Below, piece by piece: positions 41,467 to 43,600 of a stretch of 64,000 nucleotides of DNA. Source of the DNA: Methylobacterium sp. 77 (lineage in GTDB: Bacteria; Pseudomonadota; Alphaproteobacteria; Rhizobiales; Beijerinckiaceae). A program made the position numbers and the translations under genes. The DNA is taken from the NCBI RefSeq assembly GCF_000372825.1, contig NZ_KB910516.1, forward strand, positions 4,376,511-4,440,510, read 5' to 3'. Numbering within the stretch: the first letter of the stretch is position 1; each line of letters starts with the position of its first letter. The notes beneath the pieces are model-generated. The model was given only the letters and a program-made list of their open reading frames with translations, made no database searches and was not told where the DNA came from.

Positions 41467-42180
41467 ATGAACACTTCCGCCGAGGCGGCCGGCGCTCAGC
41501 CGGTCCCGGCCCTGTTCTTTGCCAAGGTGGAACGCCGCTACGCGCAAGGGACGGGTGCTCTCGACATCCTGCGCGGCGCCGATCTCGCGATCTGGCCGGG
41601 TGAACTCGTGGCGCTGGTGGCGCCCTCGGGGGCGGGCAAATCCACTCTTCTCCACCTCGCCGGTCTGCTCGAACGGCCCGACGGCGGCGAGGTCTATATC
41701 GGTGGCCAGCCCACCGCGGCGATGCCCGATGCCGAGCGCACGCGCTTTCGCCGCGAGGAGATGGGCTTCGTCTATCAGTTCCACCATCTCCTGCCGGAAT
41801 TCTCGGCCCTGGAGAACGTGGTGATGCCGCAGCTCATCCGTGGTCTCGGCGCCAAGGAGGCCAAGGCGCGCGCCACCGAACTCCTGAGCTTTCTCGGCCT
41901 CAAGGAGCGCCTGGTCCACCGCCCCGCCGAATTGTCCGGCGGCGAGCAGCAGCGCGTCGCCATCGCCCGCGCGGTCGCCAACGGCCCGCGCCTGCTGCTG
42001 GCCGACGAGCCCACCGGCAACCTCGACCCGCACACGGCGGCGCATGTCTTCGGCATCCTCGTGTCGCTGGTCCGCGCTTCGGGCCTCGCGGCGCTCGTCG
42101 CCACGCACAACATGGAACTCGCCGCTCGCATGGACCGGCGCGTCACCATCCGGGATGGGCTGATCGAGCAGCTGGCGTAG
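41467..42180 (+). CDS. lolD: Lipoprotein-releasing ABC transporter ATPase LolD
   Basis: A 237-residue ATPase partner of the preceding permease. Walker A reads APSGAGKST (52-60), with Ala in place of the usual first Gly; the Q-loop is [12 protein letters not shown], the signature [14 protein letters not shown], Walker [13 protein letters not shown] and the switch His is in ATHNME. It starts 16 bases after lolC. In many relatives dnaE follows lolD; here it does not. Confidence 0.93.
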
Positions 42181-42424
42181 AGGGTATCGGAAACGGGGAA
42201 CGACGAGCGGCCTGTTCCCTCGACGCTCCCCGCTGCCGGCCTTCGGCACCCGCGCCCGGATCGCTCTTTCACGATGGAAACGTTCGTGGACGACCGGATC
42301 TCATCGAGGGCTCCCGGCGCGGCGGCACCCCGATGAATGCAGTGTTCTGACCCTCAACGCCCGAGAGCCATGTTCACGGTTTCTCAACCACGCCGGCGCT
42401 CGCCCAAAATCCCCGCTTTACACA

Positions 42425-42439
42425 GAACAAAACAAGAAC
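42425..42439. promoter_or_regulatory. LexA (SOS) box
   Basis: GAAC-N7-GAAC, reading GAACAAAACAAGAAC, is a perfect match to the direct-repeat LexA operator of alphaproteobacteria (GTTC-N7-GTTC on the other strand), including the A/T-rich spacer usual in these sites. It ends 32 bases before the ATG of the 34-residue membrane protein at 42472, where it would overlap or abut the promoter. A chance match of these eight bases is expected now and then in 64 kb, so the position in a promoter is what makes it convincing. Confidence 0.7.
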
Positions 42440-42471
42440 AAAGATGATCCCGTCAACGAGGGGCGCGTCAC

Positions 42472-42576
42472 ATGTTCAAGCGGATGATCCTGACCGGCGC
42501 GGTGGAGTTCATGGCCTTCGGCCTGCTTTCTGGGGCGTTCGTGGTCTGGGCGGTGGCGCTCGCGCCGCTGCGGTGA
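42472..42576 (+). CDS. 34-aa membrane protein under a LexA box
   Basis: A very short gene, beginning MFKRMILTGAVEFMAF and ending VVWAVALAPLR. The N-terminus is basic (Lys3, Arg4) and residues 6-32 form one membrane helix interrupted by Glu12; the C-terminus ends in Arg. The ATG at 42472 follows GAGGGG by about 9 bases. A perfect LexA box lies just upstream, so it is probably SOS-induced. Caulobacter SidA, a 29-residue LexA-controlled membrane peptide that blocks division, is the obvious functional analogue, but I see no sequence homology. A stress-induced small membrane protein of another type is equally possible. It ends 10 bases before the convergent OmpA-like gene. Confidence 0.65.
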   Translation: MFKRMILTGAVEFMAFGLLSGAFVVWAVALAPLR

Positions 42577-42586
42577 GGGGCTCGCA

Positions 42587-43600
42587 TCAGCGTTCGGTGA
42601 GTTTCAGTTCGATGCGGCGGTTGCGAGAATAGATCTCTTCGGTGGTACCGGCCTCGAGCGGCTGGAATTCGCCGAAGGCGGCCGCGAGAAGGCGTTGAGG
42701 CGGGATGCCCTTGGCCGCCATGAACTGCACGACGGCGATGGCACGCGCCGCCGAAAGGGACCAGTTCGACGGAAATTGCGAGCTGGCGATGGGGCGGGCG
42801 TCGGTATGCCCGTCGACCCGCAGTACCCAGGGGATATCGGCGGGGATCTGCTTGGCGAGGTCGAGGATCGCGGTGGCGATCCGGTCGAGTTCGGGCGCCG
42901 CTTCCGGTTTCAGGCTCGCGGAACCCGCCGGGAACAGCACTTCCGATTGCAGGACGAACCGGTCGCCGACCACGCGAATGTCGCTGCGGTTGCCGAGGAT
43001 CTGGCGCAGGCGGCCGAAGAAGTCCGAGCGATAGCGCGCCAGTTCCTGGACCTTCTGCGCCAGCGCGACATTGAGGCGGCTGCCGAGATCCGCGATGCGG
43101 GCCTGGCTCTCGCGGTCGCGGCTCTCGCTCGCGGCGAGCGCATCCTCCAGGGCGGCGAGTTGGCGGCGCATGGCGCCGATCTGCTCGTTGAGGAGGTCGA
43201 TCTGCGAGGCGGCACGCGCGCTGGCGGCACGCTCGGTCAGCAATTGCTTGTCGAGTTCACCCTGGCGGCCGTCGCTGCTCGCGGCACCGAGGGCCTGTTC
43301 CTTCAGCTTGTCGCGCTCGGCCTCGGTGCCGAGGAGGGTCGTGCGCAGGTTCGAGGCCTTCTCTTCCTGGGCACGGCGATTGGAGCGTTCCAGGGCGAGG
43401 AGGTCGGTGAGGTCGGCGATCTGGCGGTTGAGTCGATTCAACACCGAATCGCGGCCGGTGATCTCCTGCGACAGGAAGAACTGCCCCACCACGAAGATCG
43501 TGAGCAGGAAGACCACGGCCAGCAGCAGCGTCGCCAGGGCATCGACATAGCCCGGCCAGACGTTGAGGCTCCGGTCCCGGCGCGTGCGCAGCGAGGCCAT
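42587..43600 (-). CDS. OmpA/MotB-type peptidoglycan-binding membrane protein
   Basis: A 337-residue protein with a short N-terminus, one membrane helix (about 17-42, VDALATLLLAVVFLLTIFVVGQFF), a long coiled-coil (about 55-175) and a C-terminal OmpA-like peptidoglycan-binding domain (about 195-337; FPAGSASLKPEAAPELDRIA, LRVDGHTDARP, LSAARAIAVVQFM and NRRIELKL). The layout resembles MotB or ExbD/TolR-like stator partners. Its ATG overlaps the stop of the MotA/TolQ-like gene (TGATG at 43598-43602), so they are translationally coupled and probably form one ion-driven complex. It need not be a flagellar stator. Confidence 0.88.
   Translation of the reverse strand: MASLRTRRDRSLNVWPGYVDALATLLLAVVFLLTIFVVGQFFLSQEITGRDSVLNRLNRQIADLTDLLALERSNRRAQEEKASNLRTTLLGTEAERDKLKEQALGAASSDGRQGELDKQLLTERAASARAASQIDLLNEQIGAMRRQLAALEDALAASESRDRESQARIADLGSRLNVALAQKVQELARYRSDFFGRLRQILGNRSDIRVVGDRFVLQSEVLFPAGSASLKPEAAPELDRIATAILDLAKQIPADIPWVLRVDGHTDARPIASSQFPSNWSLSAARAIAVVQFMAAKGIPPQRLLAAAFGEFQPLEAGTTEEIYSRNRRIELKLTER

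Follow-up and report, generated by a model that had tools for sequence, protein, structure and literature searches.

Directly behind a transporter ATPase gene of Methylobacterium sp. 77, a LexA box is followed by an open reading frame of only 34 codons. The question raised by this locus is whether the frame is a gene and, if so, what its product would do once LexA is released. The 64,000-nucleotide stretch that contains it (the window) was analysed together with relatives in the genus, family, order and class. The reading that we favour, at a probability of roughly 0.8, is that the ORF is the genus's diverged orthologue of SidA, a LexA-repressed SOS inhibitor of division by which septal synthesis would be blocked at FtsW.

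Box, promoter and reading frame

The following features were placed on the window, positions being counted from its first letter.

41467..42180, + strand: gene for a LolD-type ABC transporter ATPase, the conserved neighbour upstream of the peptide (PF00005, E 1.2e-31)
42417..42422, + strand: putative -35 hexamer TTTACA (from sequence; columns kept in 17-25 of 25 genus loci)
42425..42439, + strand: LexA box GAACAAAACAAGAAC in the putative promoter spacer (exact GAAC-N7-GAAC match)
42440..42445, + strand: putative -10 hexamer AAAGAT, at 17-base spacing from the -35 (from sequence)
42458..42463, + strand: ribosome-binding site GAGGGG, 8 bases before the ATG (from sequence; GGAGG-like columns kept in 15-24 of 25)
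42472..42576, + strand: 34-codon ORF for a SidA-like single-helix membrane peptide (genus conservation, alignment, pN/pS, predicted helix, locus and profile links to SidA)
42587..43600, - strand: OmpA/MotB-like gene, start approximate (PF00691, E 9.3e-16)

The ATPase is presumably LolD, a name taken from its family and neighbourhood. The first-pass annotation had described an exact GAAC-N7-GAAC box 32 bases before an ATG, a ribosome site, and a 34-residue single-helix product with a basic N-terminus. Each of these was recovered. The box at 42425-42439 is separated from the ATG at 42472 by 32 bases (42440-42471), and GAGGGG at 42458-42463 precedes the ATG by a gap of 8 bases. The peptide carries K3 and R4, reaches a best 17-residue hydropathy of 2.13, and is predicted to fold as one helix over residues 2-33 (mean pLDDT 96), a prediction of little weight because a lone helix is easily predicted. 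In genus loci L022-L025 the putative -35 reads TTGACA. LexA sitting on the box within the TTTACA-N17-AAAGAT spacer would exclude RNA polymerase.

On its own, the box is weak evidence. The window holds five exact boxes where 1.5 are expected, a number reached in 2 of 100 shuffles, and the genome holds 145 against 51 for the reversed pattern. Upstream of this genome's lexA, at about 100 bases, stand overlapping GAAC-N7-GAAC repeats (GAACCCTTGCAGAACACTTGCGGAAC), so the box type suits this organism. The window's four other exact boxes (14840, 20426, 42921 and 47296) are probably chance. Three lie inside coding sequence, in IF3-like, NuoC-like (both named by eye) and MotB-like ORFs, and the remaining one, in opposite orientation, stands some 120 bases ahead of a gene that by eye looks GAPDH-like.

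Conservation in the genus

In a search of 41 relatives, every genome of the genus proved to carry the peptide (25 of 25, the window's own and 24 more). Two more matches in other genera (E 0.27 and 0.94) have no box and look like chance. The genus orthologues are 47-97% identical to the window peptide (alignment A1). An exact box starts 44-57 bases before the start codon at all 25 loci. With the box as anchor for the alignment, the 8 bases that define it were invariant (25/25), as were several A nucleotides within it and after it (n=25); columns 12-60 bases upstream of the box agreed in just 7-16 of 25 loci.

The amino-acid sequence of the peptide appears to be under selection. For pN/pS, the 23 sequences with 34 codons were used and the two longer ones left out. 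The ratio came to 0.48 in the reading frame versus 1.03 and 1.87 in the alternative frames; these values are indicative only because synonymous sites are near saturation. In-frame stops were found in 0/23 sequences, and the +2 frame is equally stop-free over the same stretch.

Conservation of frame and box in related genomes had been proposed as a check on the first-pass annotation. Both were kept in 25/25 genus genomes, and ORF and box are taken as real because of this conservation. That there is no gene here, ORF and box both having arisen by chance, is extremely improbable. The 145 exact boxes in the genome and the shortness of 34 codons leave room for such a coincidence; the joint presence of ORF and box in every genus genome and a pN/pS of 0.48 in this frame only speak against it.

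Relation to SidA and its loci

The layout had been likened at first pass to that of SidA of Caulobacter, no homology being visible by eye. Direct comparison likewise gave none. The peptide matched no family in Pfam or NCBIfam, and NCBIfam returned nothing at E <= 1, hence no match to NF033228, the NCBIfam equivalog model of SidA (curated cut-off 35 bits). With a profile made from SidA only, all 25 genus peptides scored 3.5 bits or less.

The loci of proteins that do pass the NF033228 cut-off were then compared by position. A Phenylobacterium peptide (L040) scored 58 bits. In the order around G400, which is taken to be Caulobacter's order as judged from SidA matches, 12 of 100 genomes passed, all of them in one family (21 of it sampled); the control genome, Caulobacter vibrioides, was also over the cut-off. 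At the 12 loci, dnaE lay just downstream in 12/12 and lolD within 1.5 kb upstream in 9/12. The box was exact at 8/12, and at the other four a box with mismatch was seen by eye. In the available text of the sources, C. crescentus dnaE is CC1926 (PMC1839093) and sidA is CCNA_02004 (PMC10769358), under different numbering systems. SidA loci over the cut-off thus stand before dnaE and mostly behind lolD, and SidA's place is therefore the window peptide's place. By the model's own test the peptide is outside NF033228, yet it has the same place and the same kind of switch.

A search of the class with NF033228 placed 0/289 genomes over the cut-off and 20/289 at E <= 0.1 (21 loci). Four of these loci were inspected. 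L209 and L213 are boxed peptides before dnaE; the weak matches L211 and L218 are not and were rejected. Tandem pairs of exact boxes occur at L209, L213 and L244-L246, each before a peptide of SidA type that is under the NF033228 cut-off or unmatched.

lolD and dnaE around the peptide

In the window the peptide lies directly behind lolD. Across the genus, lolD was found within 1.5 kb upstream of the peptide in 5 of 25 genomes. The remaining 20 were read up to 12 kb upstream; a same-strand lolD was found in 13 and was absent from that distance in 7. dnaE is the next gene after the peptide in 20/25 genomes. Four genomes of the genus, the window's among them, have an OmpA/MotB-like gene on the other strand there instead, and one locus meets the contig end after the peptide. 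SidA's locus, behind lolD and before dnaE, is thus matched in the genus, and the window's own genome has the lolD half only.

The dnaE of this genome (G000:C1:3088776-3089450, L249) lies about 1.3 Mb from the peptide, and its 3.7-kb locus contains no exact LexA box. Since dnaE lies 1.3 Mb off without an exact box and the peptide keeps its own, LexA control is assigned to the peptide. This separation bears on the proposal that the ORF is an upstream leader (uORF) tuning dnaE translation, with the box acting for dnaE. dnaE is indeed downstream in 20/25 genus genomes and in 35/42 loci of the order with the peptide. The sORF25 of the Sinorhizobium meliloti dnaE1 5'-UTR is named among possible uORFs in the available text of PMC10117765, and a LexA site is credited to alphaproteobacterial dnaE in that of PMC3323433. 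Against a leader function, peptide and box persist here with dnaE far away and boxless by exact match, the amino-acid sequence is apparently under selection, and SidA of Caulobacter, an established inhibitor, is just such an ORF before dnaE. We regard the leader as quite improbable, and return to the SidA orthologue.

Survey of lolD loci in the order and class

lolD relatives were found at E <= 1e-70 in 95/101 genomes of the order (own included). Their loci were pooled with 21 others, 116 in total, the 21 being the alphaproteobacterial-looking top (L028-L048) of 80 loci in a named collection. To be counted as boxed, an ORF had to start with ATG, code for 22-60 residues with a transmembrane stretch, and lie no more than 145 bases from an exact box. 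Such an ORF was present in sense orientation at 42 of the 114 lolD loci with enough sequence; at the same 114 loci none was counted in antisense, and 20 shuffled sets yielded 0. No boxed ORF was seen upstream of lolD either, a weak control because only 51/116 loci have at least 300 bases there, mostly coding. The 42/114 count used an ATG start and a stricter helix than a looser count of 43/116. The looser count included L154 (TTG start, 39 aa), which by profile is no family peptide and was rejected.

By a combined profile, a family peptide was recognised at 42/95 order loci and 9/21 others, scores that are partly circular because the majority of these peptides had gone into the profile. Eleven loci outside the training set (L029, L031, L044, L110, L125, L145, L152, L171, L176, L200 and L201) scored 17-46 bits, with other small ORFs at most 5.9. 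The 42 order loci with a family peptide have an exact box in 35 cases, one mismatch in four and two mismatches in three, the last being no better than chance; dnaE is downstream in 35/42, at a median of 139 bases. No peptide recognised by the profile stands behind lolD at 53/95 order loci, the window's own included.

In a class search with the family alignment A2, 16/289 genomes matched at E <= 0.01. Two of these belong to the window's genus, and the others include G106 and G400, already rows of A2. Of eleven new class loci (L275-L285), eight show an exact box close to the peptide (start placed by eye in L277 and L284), and dnaE follows in eight. L281 and L285 lack both, look like chance and were rejected as family members. 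Within the family, 63/119 genomes matched A2, which includes the window peptide, at E <= 0.05. The 28 family loci that were read, among them the training sequence L270 and the genus loci L304 and L307, gave 20 exact boxes, 22 with dnaE downstream and 11 with lolD upstream.

Two unusual arrangements were seen. Behind lolD at L145 (G119), a family-like peptide scoring 21.8 bits is encoded on the opposite strand, and two GTTC-N7-GTTC boxes follow lolD at distances of 323 and 344 bases; the locus may be present there as an inverted copy. At L299, L300, L303 and L311, from four genomes in one genus of the family, a family peptide is found with no lolD or dnaE within 1.5 kb, and the boxes carry one or two mismatches.

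Indirect sequence link through intermediates

An order/class profile was built from 39 peptides, neither SidA nor the genus being included. On 15 SidA-type peptides (10 over the NF033228 cut-off) it gave 8.4-23.8 bits; 9/15 beat the maximum of 3000 shuffles (14.8) and 7 beat the block-shuffle maximum (16.5). On the 25 genus peptides it gave scores from 16.1 down to -0.7 bits, with 5/25 above the shuffle maximum of 12.2 and one above the block-shuffle maximum of 15.1. The window variant scored 5.2 bits, a value that 2.3% of shuffles and 4.7% of block shuffles also attained; with the combined profile it scored 4.6 bits, which is noise level.

A family profile was built from 22 peptides of other genera of the family. 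It scored 13/25 genus peptides at 11.1-20.1 bits, more than any unrelated decoy: the best transmembrane segment reached 7.9 (of 1201) and the best small ORF, once family peptides were set aside, 9.4 (L039). Four higher-scoring transmembrane segments were themselves family or genus peptides. Seven of the 25 were above the maximum (11.9) of 5000 shuffles of the window peptide. The window variant itself scored -1.6 bits, reached by 3517/5000 shuffles. The reverse comparison, a genus profile on 10 sampled outside peptides, was weak, with 3/10 (L109, L113, L112) at scores reached by <5% of shuffles.

By itself the window variant is at noise, and its membership therefore rests on the genus orthologues and on position. 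The link to SidA runs through chains, because the window variant scores -1.6 and its near relatives do score: L005, with which it shares 82% identity, has 11.3 bits with the family profile, and L012, at 65% identity, has 17.4 bits. In L312, L305 and L292 a glutamate precedes a tryptophan by 14 residues, as it does in the genus. L293, L295 and L290 combine this glutamate with the acidic pair seen in the wider family. The family keeps F/W positions and, ahead of the helix core, an acidic residue. The likeness to SidA noted at first pass is thus better supported than could be seen then, by a shared lolD/dnaE locus and by bridging peptides in family and order, and the peptide is a candidate inhibitor of division.

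These kept positions also bear on a LexA-controlled membrane stress peptide of another kind, for example a depolarising toxin like TisB or DinQ, whose layout would be convergent with that of SidA. TisB is an SOS-regulated single-helix peptide with membrane effects. DinQ is likewise known, in the available text on it, as an SOS-regulated single-helix peptide with membrane effects, and a single helix with few constraints suits many roles. However, the locus behind lolD and before dnaE is common to SidA itself, bridging sequences to SidA exist, and a kept acidic residue and F/W positions would hardly be needed by a generic membrane-active peptide. A toxin of this kind is unlikely.

Proposed action of the peptide

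The SidA orthologue suggests the following course of events. In the undamaged cell, LexA would occupy the box between -35 and -10 and transcription would be blocked. On DNA damage, RecA-stimulated cleavage of LexA would free the promoter. The 34-residue peptide would then be made and inserted as one helix, basic N-terminus inside. It would bind the septal peptidoglycan machinery (FtsW and partners), and cytokinesis would wait for repair. Promoter, LexA binding, induction, topology, target and phenotype of the peptide are all points that we infer. Given orthology with SidA, the window peptide should act alike: LexA off, peptide on, septal synthesis held. A single match to the FtsW/RodA/SpoVE family was found in the genome (G000:C1:4295827-4296843, L313), so there is one obvious target. 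SidA and FtsW are covered in the available text of PMC4211646 and PMC13396833, and in the latter (2026) low-confidence models place SidA on FtsW helix 7.

Comparison with known systems

SidA of Caulobacter crescentus (CCNA_02004) shares with the window peptide a LexA box just upstream of a short single-helix membrane peptide, a gene directly before dnaE and mostly behind lolD, and an acidic residue before the helix core. SidA has 29 residues against 34; the window peptide differs in its conserved tail (WAVALAP) and in a glutamate 14 residues before the Trp, and in the window genome dnaE is no longer adjacent. The peptides of Bradyrhizobium, Tardiphaga, Rhizobium and Phyllobacterium (L029-L032, L034) share locus, length range (28-32 aa) and profile, with an exact box in 4/5 and one mismatch in L031. 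Unlike the window peptide, they have acidic residues 17-18 positions, not 14, before the Trp position. No link between peptides of this type and SidA was found in the literature searched.

YneA, SosA, ChiZ and DivS are larger than the window peptide. They too are SOS-induced membrane division inhibitors, YneA acting via FtsW (available text of PMC13396833), but are called unrelated genes in the text seen of PMC4211646. DidA of Caulobacter is also a small, DNA-damage-induced, single-helix division inhibitor (PMC4211646); it differs in having 71 residues, in being SOS-independent and in binding FtsN.

A LexA-regulated dnaE is reported in Caulobacter and extended to other alphaproteobacteria by comparative genomics (PMC3323433, in the text available). 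The loci described here suggest that this LexA site acts for the intervening ORF, although dnaE may be co-transcribed. The S. meliloti dnaE1 5'-UTR contains the novel sORF25, detected by ribosome profiling and proteogenomics and listed among potential uORFs (PMC10117765, in the text available). We predict that sORF25 is the 28-residue boxed peptide of the rhizobial dnaE loci (L031, L032). No report of SidA outside Caulobacter was found in the literature searched, which did not cover the primary SidA paper (Modell 2011), and the same literature gave no named SOS division inhibitor for alphaproteobacteria beyond the Caulobacter group. What is new here is the breadth of SidA-like genes and the reassignment of the LexA site from dnaE to the peptide.

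Implications

It is fairly likely that SidA is an old alphaproteobacterial checkpoint gene of the lolD-sidA-dnaE locus, that the LexA site there is sidA's and not dnaE's, and that S. meliloti sORF25 is a member. In most genomes one damage-controlled promoter may both stop division and raise the level of the replicative polymerase; in Methylobacterium sp. 77 the two would have been split, the peptide keeping the switch. Of more interest in its wider reach is the prospect that, in much of the class, a checkpoint gene before dnaE has been overlooked. As a caution, where a LexA site has been assigned to dnaE, its actual target may be an unannotated intervening gene. The common locus points to a candidate division inhibitor in many genomes, and its divergent helices would form a natural set for learning which part of SidA contacts FtsW.
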